Virus record (IMG/VR): IMGVR_UViG_3300008517_000063
Location: 1-24,536 of that record
Length of the DNA stretch: 24,536 bases
Direction: 5' to 3' (one strand)
Source of the DNA: a virus
Shown here: piece after piece, positions 8,101 through 19,513 of the stretch
Position numbering within the stretch: position 1 is the first letter of the stretch
Layout of the letters: every line of letters starts with the position of its first letter
Translations under genes and position numbers: made by a program
Notes under the pieces: model-generated
Databases searched by the model: none
What the model saw: only the letters and a program-made list of their open reading frames with translations
What the model was told of the DNA's origin: nothing

Positions 8101-8301
8101 ATGCGCTGCCATAATTGTCTTCGCAAACTCAATCCCCTTCTCAAAGATTACCATGCCATCCAAATTACTCTTACCAAGTGTATTTACATCCACTATCCTC
8201 ACTGCCCCCCTGAAGCAGATTCTTTCGCCAATTTTAAGCAGCATGAACGCAAGCGCCTCCGAGAATCACATTCAGGCCGCATTTCCGTCCCCACCCCTTG
8301 A
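8101..8301 (+). CDS. Small Cys/His protein, last early gene, 66 aa
   Basis: Starts 2 nt after the previous stop, MRCHNCLRKLNPLLKDYHAI. Contains CHNC (C-x2-C) near the N terminus and KCIYIHYPHCPPE (~27-38), so a zinc knuckle of Cys and His is likely. The C-terminal half is basic and probably disordered. Its TGA stop (8299-8301) lies within the -35 box of the late promoter, which marks the end of the early block. It has a weak ribosome-binding site (GGAGTTAATA), suggesting coupling to the gene before it. Confidence 0.6.
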   Translation: MRCHNCLRKLNPLLKDYHAIQITLTKCIYIHYPHCPPEADSFANFKQHERKRLRESHSGRISVPTP

Positions 8302-8325
8302 CACTCTTTTTTTTTGTGCTACACT
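8298..8325 (+). promoter_or_regulatory. Sigma-70-type promoter of the late (virion) operon
   Basis: A perfect -35 TTGACA (8298-8303), a 16-bp spacer containing a run of nine T, and TACACT (8320-8325) preceded by TGC, an extended -10. Transcription should start near 8332, giving a leader of about 165 nt before the capsid gene. The -35 overlaps the stop codon of the last early gene. This is the only near-consensus promoter I see. Confidence 0.7.
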
Positions 8326-8361
8326 ATTATCGCAATCACACACACTAACACTCACCAAATC

Positions 8362-8436
8362 GCTAGACCGAGGAAAGCACGCGTCTAGCCGACCATAGGG
8401 CTTGCCTTCCAGGTCCGAGGAAAGCACGCGACCTGG
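8362..8436 (+). ncRNA. Tandem hairpins with identical loops in the late leader
   Basis: Hairpin 1: GCTAGAC (8362-8368) pairs with GTCTAGC (8383-8389). Hairpin 2: CCAGGTC (8409-8415) pairs with GACCTGG (8430-8436). Both stems are 7 bp and perfect, and both close the same 14-nt loop CGAGGAAAGCACGC. Four of the seven base pairs differ between the copies, each with compensating changes, so the RNA structure rather than the DNA sequence is being kept. A 19-nt spacer separates them. They lie between the promoter and the ATG at 8496, inside the mRNA leader. The loop contains GAGGAAAG, which looks like a Shine-Dalgarno sequence without a start codon. I do not recognise this as a named RNA family. Roles to consider: protein-binding site for autoregulation, RNase target, or loop-loop contact. 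Confidence 0.75.
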
Positions 8437-8495
8437 TGGAACGCCTAAGACACACCTACGGTCCAACCACTAATTATCTATCCTAGAGGTATTCC

Positions 8496-11117
8496 ATGAA
8501 ATACCTATCTCACCTACGTTTGCTAGAGTCCAAAGACCCCCAGGGCAAAGATTGGGACATCGTAGTCATTGAAGCAGGCCTGGGGAAAAATGATCATTTC
8601 TACTCTCCCCAAGTACTCGACAAAGCAACATCCCTTTATGAACATGTTCCCGTCTATCTTTTCAAACTCGGCGGCCTGGCCGACCACTTACCAGATGCTC
8701 TTACCGATCAAAAAAAGCGTCTTGTTGGCAACCAAGTTGGCTGGTTAGAGGACCCCCATTTCACTTCCTTCAAAGCCGACGGTAAATCAAAGCAGGGGAT
8801 CCTGGCCCGATTACACATTGACGATGGATTCAAGAACCTACGAGCCAAACTCCTAGATGCTTGGAATCATGGTCTTAAAACATTATACGGACTCTCTCAC
8901 GACGCCAGAGGCGATACCACCAAAGACGATACCACCGGCATTGAAACCGTAGATGAGATAAAGGAAGTTTCCTCTGTCGAACTCGTCACCTACCCAGCAC
9001 AGGGGGGGCAATTTATTCGACTGCTCGCCAGTCAAGGAGGCACTACAATGAAGTTCCCCAAATTAAGACAAGCTCTACTCGGGATCCTGACCAAACTCGA
9101 ACCTACATTAGTGGAGGGACTTGATGAGAGTAACATCACCAATGACCAATTCCTCGAAATGGTCGACGCGCTCCACGAGAAGGATGAGTTCTACACAGAG
9201 GCTCAAACTCTCGAAGCTAAAGGACCATTTATGCAGTCCGTTATCGCCAAACTTATCACCCTCCTAAAGGGGGATAAGAAAGAGCAGGCTCTCAAAGTCT
9301 TAACCCAGTTGCAGACCAAGCTCAAGGACTACACTTACCCCGCACCTGCCAAAGCCAAGGATTCCGACTCCGATAAGACCAAGGATTCCGGTGTTCTAAC
9401 CCTGGAAGATCTCTTCGGCGGAGCGGACGTTGATGAGTCGGCTTACACTGAGTGCATGAAGACGCAAATGAAAGCCGGTAAGTCCATGGCAGACGCAGCC
9501 AAGATCTGCAAGGTCAAGGCCAAGAAGCCGGAGCCTGCTGACAAGGACAAGGACAAGGACGACCAGGTTAAGGACGCCCTTGCTCGCGTAGCCAAAGTCG
9601 AGGAAAACATCAAAAAAACTGCATCCGCAACTATCCTCGATCAGGTCTTAAAGGCCTCGGATCTCTTCGAGCCTGTTAAGGAAAAAATCCGCAACCAATA
9701 TAAAGATCGCATCTTCGAGAAGAAAGACCTCGAAGAGTCCCTGAAGCAGGAGAAGGCTACCCTGGCCAAACTCACAGAATCCGGCAACCTCACAGGTCTT
9801 GGACAGTCCAGAGTCGAGGTCACTCTTGCTGAAAGTGACAAGCACCAAATCGCCATGGATCTCTTATTCGAGAACGAAGTTAAGGATCCGAAGGGAGTCA
9901 CAGCCTATAGGGGTATCAAGGAAGCCTATAAGAGTTATAATCCCCAGGACCCCGATGTAACCTTCCAGTCTCGCAGACCTAAACGTCTCTCCGAAGCTAC
10001 TATGGTAGTAGCGGACTTTGATAACGCACTCGGGACCTCCATGATGAAGAAGATGTTAAAGGTCTATAAGCTCATGGACCTTCCTTGGAAAGAGTTTGTT
10101 AATATCGTACCTGTAAGTGACTTCAAACAGCAGGAACGTATCCGCTGGGGAGGTTTCGGCGAGCTTCCAACTTACGACACTGAAGACGCGGAATATGCCG
10201 ACATCGCATTCCCTACGGACGAGAAGGCAACCTATACTCCCTTAACCAAGGGGGGCCTCTTCCCTATCTCTCGCAGATCCATCAAAAACGATGACATGAA
10301 CATGCTCAGACAGGTTCCTCGCAGACTTGCCAGAGCAGCCGCACGAACCCTCAACAGTTTTGTCTGGGCGTTTCTAATCAACAACTCCACTATCTATGAT
10401 AACGCAGCTCTCTTCACCGCCGCACGCGGCAACCTCGGTGCATCCGCCCTCGACTTCGATACTCTCTCCGTCGCTGTAACCGCACTCAAAGGAATGAGAG
10501 AAAAGGGTAACTATGCAGTGGAAGGAACGGTAACCGGAGTATCCGCCTCAACGTTGGAGACCGGCAAAACGTGGACGGCAAGCCAGTACGACGATTACTA
10601 CGTCAGAATCGTTTACGGAACCGGAGTAGGACAGTATAGGAAAATCGCCAGCCACACGACTGGCGGAGTAATTACGCTGGACGCTGATTGGACAACTAAT
10701 CCTGATACGAGTTCAAAGTACGAAATATTCCAACACCTAGATGAGAAGATCGGACTGAAACCTGCTCATATCGCAGTACCCTCAGAACTCGAACCAACCC
10801 TGGATGTTATTCTCCAATCCAAACTCGAACCCGGAACGGTTGAGAACAACATCAACGTAATGAAGAACGTCGCTAAGAAAATGGTTCCTCCTAATCTAGT
10901 TGACGTAAATGACTGGTATGTCATAGCCGATAAGACTTGGTTGGACCTGTTCGAGCTCGGCTTCATAGATGGCGCACAGAATCCAACTATTCTCATTCAG
11001 GATCAACCTAATGTTGGCACAATGTTTACCCGTGACAGAATCACTTACAAAATAAGGCACGAATATGGCGGAGCACCGGTTGACTATCGTGGCTTCTACA
11101 AAGCCGTAGTCAGCTAA
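8496..11117 (+). CDS. Prohead protease-scaffold-major capsid fusion protein
   Basis: 873 residues. Residues ~1-178 resemble a prohead serine protease: IVVIEAGLGKNDHFYSPQVL at the start, ILARLHIDD, TLYGLSHDARGD with Ser134 as candidate nucleophile (His125/His135 nearby), and EIKEVSSVELVTYPAQGG. Residues ~185-500 are Lys/Glu-rich and helical, including a Cys motif (AYTECMKTQMKAGKSMADA) and a coiled scaffold-like stretch. Residues ~500-873 are a Mu gpT-type HK97-fold capsid protein (MVVADFDNALGTSMMKK, WGGFGELPTYDTED, RAAARTLNSFVW, PTILIQDQPNVG). A ~67-residue beta-domain is inserted at ~677-743. Protease-capsid fusions of this type are known in phages; self-cleavage is presumed to release the capsid protein. 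The start follows AGAGG in the structured leader. Confidence 0.85.
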   Translation: MKYLSHLRLLESKDPQGKDWDIVVIEAGLGKNDHFYSPQVLDKATSLYEHVPVYLFKLGGLADHLPDALTDQKKRLVGNQVGWLEDPHFTSFKADGKSKQGILARLHIDDGFKNLRAKLLDAWNHGLKTLYGLSHDARGDTTKDDTTGIETVDEIKEVSSVELVTYPAQGGQFIRLLASQGGTTMKFPKLRQALLGILTKLEPTLVEGLDESNITNDQFLEMVDALHEKDEFYTEAQTLEAKGPFMQSVIAKLITLLKGDKKEQALKVLTQLQTKLKDYTYPAPAKAKDSDSDKTKDSGVLTLEDLFGGADVDESAYTECMKTQMKAGKSMADAAKICKVKAKKPEPADKDKDKDDQVKDALARVAKVEENIKKTASATILDQVLKASDLFEPVKEKIRNQYKDRIFEKKDLEESLKQEKATLAKLTESGNLTGLGQSRVEVTLAESDKHQIAMDLLFENEVKDPKGVTAYRGIKEAYKSYNPQDPDVTFQSRRPKRLSEATMVVADFDNALGTSMMKKMLKVYKLMDLPWKEFVNIVPVSDFKQQERIRWGGFGELPTYDTEDAEYADIAFPTDEKATYTPLTKGGLFPISRRSIKNDDMNMLRQVPRRLARAAARTLNSFVWAFLINNSTIYDNAALFTAARGNLGASALDFDTLSVAVTALKGMREKGNYAVEGTVTGVSASTLETGKTWTASQYDDYYVRIVYGTGVGQYRKIASHTTGGVITLDADWTTNPDTSSKYEIFQHLDEKIGLKPAHIAVPSELEPTLDVILQSKLEPGTVENNINVMKNVAKKMVPPNLVDVNDWYVIADKTWLDLFELGFIDGAQNPTILIQDQPNVGTMFTRDRITYKIRHEYGGAPVDYRGFYKAVVS
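9034..9050 (+). promoter_or_regulatory. Internal in-frame start with strong ribosome-binding site
   Basis: AAGGAGG (9034-9040) lies 7 nt before an in-frame ATG (9048-9050, Met185 of the fusion protein), precisely at the boundary between the protease domain and the scaffold. It would give a 689-residue scaffold-capsid product (MKFPKLRQALLGILTK...) without the protease, in the manner of nested scaffold genes such as lambda Nu3 within C. This could set the ratio of protease to capsid. It is stronger than the site at the annotated gene start. Confidence 0.55.
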
Positions 11118-11203: not shown

Positions 11204-14200
11204 ATGGGCGCATCAACTTTCAAACGCACACACATCGTCCTGGGGAAAGACGGCGCAGGCCAGGATTTTAAGGCCTTCGGAGACACCTCCGGCGCTTACA
11301 TCCGCTGGGACCACGCAAACGACAAACTAATCTTCGCTGGTGGAGCCGATATGGACATGGGTTCATTCGGTACGCCTCTCACCCTCAACCAATCAAACAA
11401 TTATCTTTTCGGTATTTTCGGCGACGTGTCGGTCGCGAACGCTACCGGCACCAATGTCGAAAGAGGCATTTGGTCCCGGGTCAAAGTTTCCGCAGCTCAG
11501 ACTGGAGCCTTCTCCATCTTCGGCGGACAGCTTCAATTCCGCTGGGCCGATGGATGCACAACTCTCGGTTCCGGCACTGAGAACGCTCAGTATGCTGGAG
11601 CATGGCTTTACCTCGAACAGGACACAACTGGGCAAGCACTCGCTGATTACGCACACGCTTCTGGAGTAGTTGTCCAGGTCGAAACCTTCGGAGCTCTAAC
11701 TATACCAACCAACGCTCATCTCTCCGGGGTCCAAATCGAATCTCGCCTGGGAGCTGCTAATGGCGCAGCTATCTCACTCAATAGCGGAACTATCGCAGGA
11801 GTATTCATCACTAAATCTCCTGCCGCCGCGGGTGTAACGGCTGCTGATTGGCCATTCGGGATCTTCATTGAGGATTGTACGGTGGCCATGCGGGTAGAAA
11901 CCTCCCTACCAGTTCAGTTCAGAGACGCGAATACCTACATCTCCTCATCGGCAGCAAGCGTCCTGGACATCGTTGCTGCAACCGCGATTAAGATAGAAGG
12001 CGATCTCCGAACGGATCGCTGGCAGGATGAGGTCAAAAATACCCTAATCGGTGTTGATGTCGCTGGTGCTGATGGTTTATCATCGGGAGCGCTACACAAT
12101 ACGGGAATCGGCTACCAAGCTCTATATAGCCTCACTCTCGGTACTCACAATGTAGCGATCGGTGGTTTAGCTCTATACACCTGCGCCACGGCGGACAAGA
12201 ATACGGCCGTTGGATTTAACGCTCTCAAGACCTATAACTACGATGGAGCTGGGTGGAACGTAGCGGTTGGATATAATGCGCTCGGTCTGGCAACTGGTTC
12301 CGCTGGTGATTGGGGCATGGGTAACGTTGCTGTTGGCTCCAGATCCGGCGATCACATCACCTACGGAGCTTATAACATCGTAATCGGTTACCAAGCTGGT
12401 GATAATATCACAACTGCCGACCATTGCATCATAATCGGTAATCAGGTCGATGCTCCTTCTGCTACCACTGATGCTCAGATAAAGATTGGCGGAAGCACTG
12501 CTGAACAGGGATATATCCTAGGCGATGGCGCTGGGGATATGACAATCAATGCTATAGATGCTCACGATGTTCATCTAGCTGTAGCTGACGTTGACGTGGT
12601 GAGTGTAGGTTCTGCTGTTGTTGCGATAGTTCAGCCAACGACCGTAACCTTAGCGGCGGGAACCGGAGTGCATTCAGCGGTCACTGCTGTGGCTGCATAT
12701 ACTGGATGGGCTTTAGGATACTGGGGTCAGGCTATTATCTCAAACACTGAAGGGAACGCTGCTAACGCTGCTGGTGGATGTTTTGAGATAAATGTTACGG
12801 ATACGCATACAGGGGGTAAGTCGGGAATTTGGGCTGGTATTTATGTTGGATGTTTTGCGAGTTCGGCGACTGCGGGGTCCATTCCGACTGCGGGAATTTA
12901 TATTGAGAATATTGCTGGTGCTGAAATAGATATGTCTGACGTTCCTATGATAAGTCTGGTAACAAGTGGAGGGGGAGGTGCAGGAGAACAGTCTGCTATT
13001 GCATTTGAATTTGGTAATGCTGAGGCAGCAAAGGAAGTTTCGATTGGCGCTGGAGGTATGTGGCAAGAGCAGACAATAAGATGCGTAATAAATGGTACAG
13101 CGTACTTTATACCAATGTCGACTGGCGAAGGAACATACACGACTGCTTATCCGATAATATCTAGCTATTCGGCCGGATCTGCGGTGGCTGTCACCTCAAC
13201 CGCTCCGACAACTGCTACCAATGCAATCTCGAGTGCAGTAAATATAACGGACGGTTGGGCGAGCGGAGAGATAAACGCTATCTATGGCAAGGTGACGATA
13301 ACTCCCGCTGCTGGAGTGACATACAGTGCTGCTGGGGGTCATTTTGAGCTAGAGATGGTCGGGAACGCGACGAGTGGTCACGGTCTGCTGTGCGGAGCGA
13401 TGGTTAAATTCACTTCGGACTTAGAGCAACCTAATGCGATACTGTATCTGGAATCATATCCTACTGGATCCTGCGACCTATCCGAGACTCCCTTTATAAC
13501 ATTCTGTGACTATAAGTCAGGTAGCGGGGTTAAATCTAATACTCTATTCAGGATAGGGGATCCCATGATGGCGCAAGCTATCTCAACAGGAAGCGGCAAA
13601 CTCTCTTACAATCAGACGCTTCGGTGCGCTCTTTATGATACCCCGATTTATCTCGTGACTTCAACTGAACAGGGCACCTACACGACTGCTTATCCGATAG
13701 AATCATCGAGTAGAAATGCTTTTAGTTCTGCTGCGATCTTTGTTCCATCTACCAGTGTTGGAACGGATTATGTTTTCGCAATGGGAACATACGGCACTCC
13801 ACTTGATGTCACATATGCTTCTGGTGCTGGTGCTCAACATTTCCTCCCATTCCAGATGAATGTCACGCCCATAGGAGCAGACCCAGAATCTTCAAGCTCA
13901 ACTAACTTGATGACTTGTGTGATTACTCACGACACTCTTGCTATGCCTCATGGACGACTAAAATGTACAGACTTCTACACCAACATATCAAAGAATGTTT
14001 TGGATGCTTATGTCTATCAGGGCGAGCTTAATTTCTCTGATAGTTCTGCTTTCAATGAGGCTGCTGCTCTCGGTTTATGCGTGAATGCTAGTAGTGGAAC
14101 AGTTGCTGGGAAACTTCGTGGCATAATTGTTCAAATGCAGGGGGCTTCTCAACCAACGGATACAATGGCTATTGAAATTAGAAACATCGGAAGCGGAGCA

Positions 14201-14416
14201 ACCATTAAGGACGGAGTTATGATGAACGCTGCTGATACAATCACCAACGGCGTAAGAATGTGGGGAGATGTTACGAATGCCTTCGCTTTTGAGGCTGCTG
14301 ATACTGGCCCTGTAATAACTGGTTGCGATAATGTTGATGACCGTGAAGGTTCAATAAAGATTACAGTTGCTGGGGTTGCGAAATATCTACACTACTGGCC
14401 GAATGCAGCATCATAA
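11204..14416 (+). CDS. Large multidomain fibre/decoration-like virion protein
   Basis: 1070 residues, ATG after AAGGGAGAAAAACA. Residues ~1-290 are beta-rich. Residues ~299-416 carry repeats of the form N(T/V)AxGxxAL (NTGIGYQALYSL, NVAIGGLALY, NTAVGFNALK, NVAVGYNALG, NVAVGSRSGD, NIVIGYQAGD), the YadA-type left-handed beta-roll of trimeric adhesins and phage fibres. Two tandem copies of a ~180-residue module follow (~470-650 and ~653-830), each ending near QT(I/L)RC...GTYTTAYPI. The C terminus ends GSIKITVAGVAKYLHYW, a small strand motif often closing such proteins. Its place between the capsid gene and the head-tail connectors suggests a head-attached fibre rather than a tail spike. The second half is more AT-rich than the first. 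Trimerisation is inferred. Confidence 0.7.
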   Translation: MGASTFKRTHIVLGKDGAGQDFKAFGDTSGAYIRWDHANDKLIFAGGADMDMGSFGTPLTLNQSNNYLFGIFGDVSVANATGTNVERGIWSRVKVSAAQTGAFSIFGGQLQFRWADGCTTLGSGTENAQYAGAWLYLEQDTTGQALADYAHASGVVVQVETFGALTIPTNAHLSGVQIESRLGAANGAAISLNSGTIAGVFITKSPAAAGVTAADWPFGIFIEDCTVAMRVETSLPVQFRDANTYISSSAASVLDIVAATAIKIEGDLRTDRWQDEVKNTLIGVDVAGADGLSSGALHNTGIGYQALYSLTLGTHNVAIGGLALYTCATADKNTAVGFNALKTYNYDGAGWNVAVGYNALGLATGSAGDWGMGNVAVGSRSGDHITYGAYNIVIGYQAGDNITTADHCIIIGNQVDAPSATTDAQIKIGGSTAEQGYILGDGAGDMTINAIDAHDVHLAVADVDVVSVGSAVVAIVQPTTVTLAAGTGVHSAVTAVAAYTGWALGYWGQAIISNTEGNAANAAGGCFEINVTDTHTGGKSGIWAGIYVGCFASSATAGSIPTAGIYIENIAGAEIDMSDVPMISLVTSGGGGAGEQSAIAFEFGNAEAAKEVSIGAGGMWQEQTIRCVINGTAYFIPMSTGEGTYTTAYPIISSYSAGSAVAVTSTAPTTATNAISSAVNITDGWASGEINAIYGKVTITPAAGVTYSAAGGHFELEMVGNATSGHGLLCGAMVKFTSDLEQPNAILYLESYPTGSCDLSETPFITFCDYKSGSGVKSNTLFRIGDPMMAQAISTGSGKLSYNQTLRCALYDTPIYLVTSTEQGTYTTAYPIESSSRNAFSSAAIFVPSTSVGTDYVFAMGTYGTPLDVTYASGAGAQHFLPFQMNVTPIGADPESSSSTNLMTCVITHDTLAMPHGRLKCTDFYTNISKNVLDAYVYQGELNFSDSSAFNEAAALGLCVNASSGTVAGKLRGIIVQMQGASQPTDTMAIEIRNIGSGATIKDGVMMNAADTITNGVRMWGDVTNAFAFEAADTGPVITGCDNVDDREGSIKITVAGVAKYLHYWPNAAS
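13136..13156 (+). repeat. Internal repeat, copy 1 of the fibre module end
   Basis: 21 nt coding for (T)YTTAYPI, identical to 13679-13699 in the same frame. It marks the end of the first of two tandem protein modules; flanking codons differ, so the modules are diverged at DNA level except here. Confidence 0.7.
13679..13699 (+). repeat. Internal repeat, copy 2 of the fibre module end
   Basis: Second copy of the 21-nt stretch at 13136-13156, again encoding (T)YTTAYPI at the end of a ~180-residue module. Retention of exact identity here while flanking DNA diverges suggests recent recombination or gene conversion. Confidence 0.7.
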
Positions 14417-18088: not shown

Positions 18089-19513
18089 ATGGCAGGCTCA
18101 GGTAAGCAATCTCATCTCGGCATAGCCAAAGAAGTCATCTGGGGCGAGGCTGTAGCTGCCACAGATCATCTCAAATACTCCTCAGAGAAACTTATTTTCG
18201 ACCCAGAGGAGTTAGTCGCCTCCTCCATACCATCTTTACGCGATGAGCCCGACAGCTACGAGGGCTTAAATAACATCGGTGGCCCATCGGTTCACGAAGT
18301 TCATCCCGATGGTCTCGGCTACATTCTCCGTTCCTGGTTCGGTAAATGCCTTACTACTAATCCTACCGGCACGGTCTTCAAGCATGTGTTTACCCCAGGT
18401 TTGGATAAGGAAGCATCCGGGACCGCGAATTCCGGCACCTCCACCACGTTAATAGACGCAGCTCTCGTCGCTACGGACGACATGTATAACGGCTGCTGGC
18501 TTCATATTATCTCCGGCACTAATTCAGGTGAGTGGCGCATTATTACCGATTCTGTGGCATCTTCCAACCAACTCACGGTAGCCCCCGCTTTTACCGCGGC
18601 TATCAACAATACTTCTGTTTTCGAGATTCGTAATGGTCCGAAGGATTGTATTCTACCACCTTACACCCTGGAAGCTCATCGAGATCTTGCTAAAGCCTTT
18701 CAATTCAAAGGCTGTGTACCCAATACGCTTTCCTTCGCCATCAGCACCGTGGCTAAGATCCTCATGCTCACCGCTGACTGGATCGCCAAGGACGTCGCGC
18801 TCGTCGATCCCACGTCTCCGGATCCTGAGGATACTGAACCATTTCGCTGGAACCAGGCAATACTACTCATCGGCCGTGATTATTCTAGCACCGTGGATAT
18901 AGATGGCAATACCAATACTACTACCAAGATTTATGACGTTGCTGCTTCCTACACCATTGACGCCCTCATCGGCAAATATATTCGCATGACCTCCGGGACC
19001 TGCATCGACCAAATCCGTAAGATTACGGATAACACGGCTACAACTATTACCTTCTCACCGGCTATGTCCGCAGCTCCCTCAAACGCCGATACGTATGAGG
19101 TTTGGACTGAGGACGGCACGATGGAGACACTCGCCCTCGCTATTTCCAATGGTCTCCTGGCTGTGCCGTTACTGAATAATTCTAAATGCATCGCTAAAAT
19201 AGTCGGCGATGTCTTCAGGCTCGGCACCATCGCAGCAACTTTCCACGTTGAGAATCGCACTAATTGGGAAACCTATTTCAAAGACTGGACGACACGCCCC
19301 TGGTTCCTACTCTTCCGGGGTGCTTCCCGTACCAGCACCGCATTCTATTACGAGTTACAGTTTCATCTACCGAAGGTGCTTTTTACCGCTTACCCCCTTG
19401 GCACCGATGGCCCCGGCCAACTCACAGTCGGAGCCACCGGGAAAGTTAAGTACGATTCAACTTCGGAGTATCTCGCTAAATGCGTGCTCTTTAACGCTAA
19501 ATCTAGTTATTAA
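18089..19513 (+). CDS. Tail tube protein with two inserted beta domains
   Basis: 474 residues from an ATG after AAGGAGATAATA. Starts SHLGIAKEVIWGEAVAATDH, the usual 'g...iG.E...Gt.v.p...l......' opening of major tail/tube proteins, then ILRSWFGKCLTTNPTG and a C-terminal tube core (ISNGLLAVPLLNNSKCIAKI, LLFRGASRTSTAFYYELQFH, YDSTSEYLAKCVLFN). Two beta domains are inserted at about 108-182 (WLHIISGTNSGEWRIITDS) and 270-342 (YIRMTSGTCIDQIRKITDN), both related to the domain in the capsid protein (YVRIVYGTGVGQYRKIASH). These probably project from the tube surface. Most single-domain tube proteins are shorter. The 72-nt gap after it shows nothing certain. Confidence 0.75.
   Translation: MAGSGKQSHLGIAKEVIWGEAVAATDHLKYSSEKLIFDPEELVASSIPSLRDEPDSYEGLNNIGGPSVHEVHPDGLGYILRSWFGKCLTTNPTGTVFKHVFTPGLDKEASGTANSGTSTTLIDAALVATDDMYNGCWLHIISGTNSGEWRIITDSVASSNQLTVAPAFTAAINNTSVFEIRNGPKDCILPPYTLEAHRDLAKAFQFKGCVPNTLSFAISTVAKILMLTADWIAKDVALVDPTSPDPEDTEPFRWNQAILLIGRDYSSTVDIDGNTNTTTKIYDVAASYTIDALIGKYIRMTSGTCIDQIRKITDNTATTITFSPAMSAAPSNADTYEVWTEDGTMETLALAISNGLLAVPLLNNSKCIAKIVGDVFRLGTIAATFHVENRTNWETYFKDWTTRPWFLLFRGASRTSTAFYYELQFHLPKVLFTAYPLGTDGPGQLTVGATGKVKYDSTSEYLAKCVLFNAKSSY

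Follow-up and report, generated by a model that had tools for sequence, protein, structure and literature searches.

The window analysed here is a stretch of 24,536 nt from virus record IMGVR_UViG_3300008517_000063 (positions 1 to 24,536) that encodes, on the strand shown, a fusion of head protease, scaffold and major capsid protein. The region ahead of this gene contains a sigma-70-type promoter followed by two tandem hairpins, H1 and H2, which an earlier note made from the sequence alone had placed between the promoter and the protease-capsid start; their coordinates and sequences, with perfect 7-bp stems and the same 14-nt loop, were verified, as was their position relative to both neighbours (Table 1). 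Taken alone the promoter match in the window is weak evidence because shuffles of the same region yield 0.7 such sites; TTGACA is found at the equivalent position in all five leaders described below (window, L122, L150, L151 and L152). Immediately after the capsid gene lies a 1070-aa structural protein (11204-14416) that weakly resembles tail spike and virion structural PHROGs. We also noted a domain of ~75 aa (YYVRIVYGTGVGQ-RKI) common to the C-terminal region of the capsid protein and to a minor tail protein.

Table 1. Features of the capsid leader in the window and of related loci (window positions unless a record is named).
Feature	Position	Strand	Details
Sigma-70-type promoter, TTGACA-16 nt-TACACT	8298..8325	+	10 of 12 matches; TG ahead of second hexamer
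Hairpin H1, GCTAGAC-CGAGGAAAGCACGC-GTCTAGC	8362..8389 (loop 8369-8382)	+	7-bp stem, 14-nt loop; five-phage covariation at 5 of 7 pairs
P1 5′ strand, GACCATAGG	8391..8399	+	pairs with 8455-8463, one A-C mismatch; alignment-wide helix
P2 5′ strand, GCCTT	8404..8408	+	imperfect in window; GNCUUU/AAAGNC-type helix in relatives
Hairpin H2, CCAGGTC-CGAGGAAAGCACGC-GACCTGG	8409..8436 (loop 8416-8429)	+	7-bp stem, 14-nt loop; covariation at 3 of 7 pairs
Conserved 3′ bulge, TGGAACGCCT	8437..8446	+	between H2 and P2; consensus TGGAANGCH; TGGAACGC at 8437-8444
P2 3′ strand, AAGAC	8447..8451	+	pairs with 8404-8408
P1 3′ strand, CCTACGGTC	8455..8463	+	counterpart in L150, L151 and L152 forms the 5′ arm of the predicted U9 terminator; not so in window
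Shine-Dalgarno-like AGAGG	8485..8489	+	within weak predicted hairpin 8466-8490, about 2.4 kcal/mol (fold)
Head protease-scaffold-major capsid fusion protein	8496..11117	+	PF25209 Phage_capsid_4; PHROG 133/29592; ATG at 8496
Carriers of short ~75-aa domain	window 8496-11117 and 18089-19513; L128 12262-12480		
L152 variant loops, CGAGGAATGAGCGA and CGAGGAATGCGCGT	L152 2867-2880 and 2914-2927		A-to-T change in both
Protein with ligase domain	L128 5960-10036; L126 7629-2287	L126 minus	
Leaders of distant capsid relatives	L274 3470-3612; L275 3374-3545; L276; L277 1866-2007; L280 940-1095		

The loops of H1 and H2 are identical in the window and four of the seven stem pairs are swapped for other Watson-Crick pairs, so the compensating changes noted earlier are present in the sequence. 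A linker of 19 nt (8390-8408) separates the two hairpins, with similar linkers in the relatives, and a 16-nt direct repeat in the leader was the only repeat detected within the surrounding 400 nt. Chance occurrence, which the earlier note had named as grounds for dismissing the hairpins, was assessed in 100 first-order Markov sequences as long as the window by counting pairs of hairpins with 7-bp stems and 14-nt loops no more than 100 nt apart. None of these sequences held a pair sharing 10 or more of the 14 loop bases (best 5 of 14), against one pair sharing 14 of 14 in the window; the tandem-hairpin observation is correct and lies far beyond chance. Folding energy alone would have missed the leader, as its 161 nt have only a modest energy advantage over shuffles (z -1.85).

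Searching viral contigs by protein and by pattern identified four uncultivated phages with the same element, designated by their records L122 (=L126), L127 (=L150), L128 (=L151) and L152 (=L245). Alignment over the available length gave 61-66% identity to the window protein for the capsid proteins of three of them. In all five phages the tandem hairpins occupy the same position ahead of the capsid start, in one copy per record; five is a lower bound (at least five, among the matches listed), and L150 and L152 are close to each other. The five-leader alignment also revealed a third covarying helix, formed by P1 and P2, that encloses H2 and contains a conserved TGGAANGC bulge. This nine-base bulge repeats the GGAANGC of the two loops, and its TGGAA-GC is invariant in all five leaders. 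Between P1 and P2 lies an internal loop, which in the relatives is two by one. The window has a strong P1, with one mismatch, and a weak P2. The original two-hairpin description was thus accurate for the hairpins themselves but incomplete, having overlooked the helix that encloses H2 and the bulge TGGAACGC.

The named structure comprises 28 pairs, and 89.3% of its cells are paired across the five leaders, a percentage biased toward the structure because it was drawn from the same five sequences. Less subject to this bias are changes on both sides of a pair, which occurred in 14 of the 28 pairs compared with 5.8 in shuffles. The covariation score was 0.475 versus 0.274 in shuffles, none of 500 shuffles scoring as high, and the pairing signal collapsed when the partner was slid by 1-3 columns. 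RNAalifold, given no structure, proposed the same three helices. A covariance model, a kind of check that the earlier note had suggested, was built from the four relatives alone and recovered the window with 71.8 bits (E=6.5e-17), and the model of all five sequences scored true members at 102-134 bits, with nothing above 17 bits elsewhere in 1.08 Mb of other loci. Selection on stem shape and loop sequence, as first proposed, is therefore borne out by hairpins, loop and covariation in the four relatives, where the idea could have failed had they lacked the hairpins or kept the stems without the loop. That an RNA family exists is near certain.

The 3′ strand of P2 and P1 (AAAGACATTCTTCAG and counterparts) has a second potential partner in L150, L151 and L152, where it also provides the 5′ arm of a long hairpin with a run of nine U after it, placing a predicted intrinsic terminator 12-21 nt upstream of the capsid ATG in three of the five leaders. 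This assignment comes from sequence and folds; a simple terminator scan missed the L150 terminator, whose stem is too long for the scan pattern or out of register with it. Since one strand is common to P2/P1 and terminator, the two structures are mutually exclusive and, like the conservation and covariation of the element, this exclusivity in three phages is demonstrated at the level of sequence. The shared strand of L151 differs from those of L150 and L152, yet both pairings are kept. When growing transcripts of the three leaders were folded, H2-P2-P1 formed at about 110-120 nt and was displaced by the terminator once the terminator 3′ arm emerged. The duplex of the shared strand with its upstream partner was predicted at -12.1, -12.7 and -13.9 kcal/mol in L150, L151 and L152, respectively (8-16 of 2000 shuffles as good), and that with the downstream arm, which precedes U9, at -21.3, -20.5 and -19.2 kcal/mol. 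With the terminator arm blocked the RNAs folded at -41.9, -36.5 and -35.4 kcal/mol, compared with -58.4, -60.3 and -50.1 kcal/mol for the full RNAs, and equilibrium favours the terminator by about 15-24 kcal/mol.

A strand with two partners, the downstream one followed by a U-tract, is the general signature of a terminator/antiterminator leader; it is present in these three relatives and absent from the window and L122, and on this basis a putative switch in the three relatives is well supported, terminator and antiterminator both being predicted structures. In the window there is no U-tract terminator, and over the ribosome site only the weak hairpin at AGAGG; its output step may be translational or lost. 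The L122 leader keeps the element, lacks the U-tract terminator, and has a 6- to 7-bp hairpin that covers GGAG and the GTG start. In L150, L151 and L152, promoter, folded RNA and U9 terminator also make a complete unit, of which each record has one copy and which is constant while upstream gene modules differ, as might be expected of a free-standing phage small RNA gene of ~130-150 nt with its own promoter and terminator, acting for example in virion assembly or packaging, or as a decoy that a host RNA-binding protein would bind. Its adjacency to the capsid gene would then be incidental or served by read-through. We consider such a gene rather unlikely, because in L122 and the window no U-tract terminator comes after the element, which there must be a capsid mRNA leader, because a terminator arm common to P1/P2 would be unneeded in a simple RNA gene, and because the element always lies immediately before the capsid start.

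On balance, the element is probably a cis-acting leader of the capsid gene whose loops are read by one partner that favours antitermination; the trans-acting partner, its identity, the ON direction and the timing are what we infer. Transcription would start at the promoter adjoining the element, and the nascent RNA would fold H1 and then H2 on the longer, irregular P2/P1 helix with its bulge. H2-P2-P1 would serve as the antiterminator in L150, L151 and L152, and terminator formation would destroy it. As the terminator wins at equilibrium, transcription would by default stop before the capsid gene, and a partner gripping both loops, and probably also the bulge with its repeat of the loop motif, would hold H2-P2-P1 in place and let polymerase enter the capsid gene. 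Default OFF and partner-stabilised ON would be the simplest reading, and the large energy gap would demand of the partner either kinetic action or very good binding. Given the terminator/antiterminator arrangement in three relatives, regulated transcription attenuation is likelier than the functions offered in the earlier note.

The ten hairpins of the five leaders share the loop consensus C G A G G A A W G N R C G N. Within the 14-nt loop (CGAGGAAWGNRCGN) C1-G13 and G2-C12 are probably paired, with a predicted remaining loop of 9 or 5 nt. Changes are paired within individual leaders, A8 being replaced by T in both L152 loops and A11 and C14 occurring in both window loops, as expected if one partner reads both. 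A partner shared by the two loops, already suggested from the window, is thus a sound proposal that stands together with selection and novelty; the suggestion of a ribosome decoy does not, as GAGGAAAG is complementary to the anti-Shine-Dalgarno sequence of the 16S 3′ end over at most 4 nt and is followed by no conserved start codon. Three further candidates were rejected: a GNRA-type tetraloop (GAAA) is ruled out by U at position 8 in L152, loop-loop kissing through GCGC by the loss of GCGC in the window and L152, and leader peptide attenuation by small ORFs that are not conserved among the five leaders. Parts of hairpin 2 may also resemble SRP and RNase P sequence strings, partly at variable stem positions.

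As to what the partner might be, the available L122 and L128 sequence shares with the window the capsid protein only, besides the short capsid/tail-protein domain; many proteins are shared with the L127 and L152 phages. The upstream module thus differs in L122 and L128 yet the RNA is kept, indicating that it stays with the capsid gene. Compatible partners would be the capsid protein itself, a downstream-module gene, a ligand, RNA polymerase or a host factor. No partner was found among the proteins compared between the window and its relatives. The capsid as the one protein detectably common to these three phages, and the cis-linkage of element and capsid gene in five of five, would suit autoregulation in which the protease-scaffold-capsid fusion or an assembly intermediate binds its own leader hairpins and tunes its own synthesis. 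We think this unlikely, as binding of the conserved fold would favour read-through and so create positive feedback, unusual for a structural protein; moreover, the sharing of the capsid alone covers L122 and L128 sequence that ends short of the downstream genes, where another shared protein is possible, the domain scan recognised no RNA-binding domain, and more distant capsid relatives carry a different leader. That a late-made protein, perhaps the capsid-scaffold or an assembly intermediate, reads loops and bulge and opens a conditional terminator, so that capsid synthesis would follow the state of virion assembly, is a slim prospect; the element would then represent a new class of phage regulatory RNA.

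In L274-L283, whose capsid proteins are 35-48% identical, the element is absent. Capsid relatives at 40-48% identity have a different, conserved leader in which a TTGACA promoter precedes ATTAGCCAA, a hairpin, GTAGCCAAA and, in most of them, a U-tract terminator; several also show CAATTC/GAATTG pairing. This may be a second leader RNA class. As several L274-L283 phages have this other promoter-leader-terminator layout, conditional termination before the capsid gene may extend beyond the RNA described here. Immediately upstream of the capsid promoter (Table 1) we also observed a protein of 1358 aa that carries an ATP-dependent DNA ligase domain (PF01068, E 5.6e-27); it occurs in L274-L280 phages as well and is absent from the window. 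At about 500-1650 of L122 the ligase-containing ORF has an extra internal segment that appears intein-like, with a putative homing-endonuclease part.

The impression that the hairpins belong to no named RNA family agrees with Rfam 15, in which neither window nor relatives had a match at the gathering threshold; the best sub-threshold match of the window leader was a chance miRNA on the opposite strand (16.4 bits versus 78). The L150 leader had no blastn match among 50,697 phage records at E up to 1, and leader searches of plasmids were likewise negative. Exact matches to the loop occurred in 119 stretches of viral contigs, all of them chance except the element, and tandem-loop matches in L123, L124, L125, L148 and L149 were coding repeats or chance, with no stems. 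Scanning 84,980 species genomes gave 19 matches, none with both hairpins, and host genes thus seemingly do not use the element. The CsrA consensus is ANGGA. A small-molecule riboswitch or CsrA-type site, whose tandem GGA-containing loops would sense host physiological state, could account for the aptamer-like layout with its switching basal helix and for the GGA that each of the five leaders has in its two loops and its bulge; we give it hardly any weight, given G instead of A two bases ahead of GGA, an invariant part far longer than GGA and the lack of a tandem element with hairpins in the species genomes. The RNA family is undescribed in the literature searched, a scope outside which most subscription journals fall.

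The usual account of late-gene control in tailed phages invokes DNA-binding activators or proteins that modify the polymerase. If true, a conserved RNA switch before the capsid gene would be a further way to time synthesis of the shell protein, and would yield a novel RNA-protein pair, with a loop both long and specific, that could serve as a tag or synthetic switch. The covariance model provides a handle for finding the element in other phages.

Several known systems resemble parts of this arrangement. In the guanidine-II (mini-ykkC) riboswitch, too, two small hairpins in tandem have the same conserved loop, there an ACGR tetraloop, and the element has no Rfam match. The dfn leader recognised by LoaP combines a hairpin and an intrinsic terminator ahead of a long operon (PMC12691694); that system uses a single UNCG-type hairpin and a NusG paralogue, in contrast to the two 14-nt loops without UNCG found here. 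HK022 putL, of about 70 nt and just downstream of PL, consists of two stem-loops (PMC9378689), and the element too offers two stem-loops soon after a phage promoter and ahead of a long operon. Processive antitermination of the put kind, in which stem-loops bind the emerging RNA polymerase and terminators are ignored without a dedicated protein, is nonetheless very unlikely here: put touches the polymerase beta′ zinc-binding domain by its two stems, whereas here the loops are invariant; put serves early genes and the element a capsid gene; the predicted terminator overlaps the element instead of being distant; and the L150 leader has no sequence similarity to any of the 50,697 phage records.

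The closest logic is that of the ANTAR target RNAs (NasR, AmiR and EutV), in which one dimeric protein reads two tandem leader hairpins with the same loop and the second hairpin competes with an intrinsic terminator (PMC3369931). Two tandem leader hairpins of at least 3 bp with the same loop are likewise present here. Exclusion of the predicted terminator operates through P1/P2 in L150, L151 and L152; the window and L122 have no terminator. ANTAR hairpins have hexaloops with A1 and G4 and a linker of 5-12 nt, longer or shorter linkers having impaired eutP (PMC3369931), as opposed to the 14-nt loop and 19-nt linker of the element, in which competition with the terminator would run through a separate helix below H2. 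With neither the defining A1/G4 hexaloop nor a short linker, the element is not a member of the ANTAR group, and no ANTAR domain was found among 20 ORFs scanned in the window and relatives; we class it as a new RNA family and, among terminator/antiterminator leaders, as a new variant.
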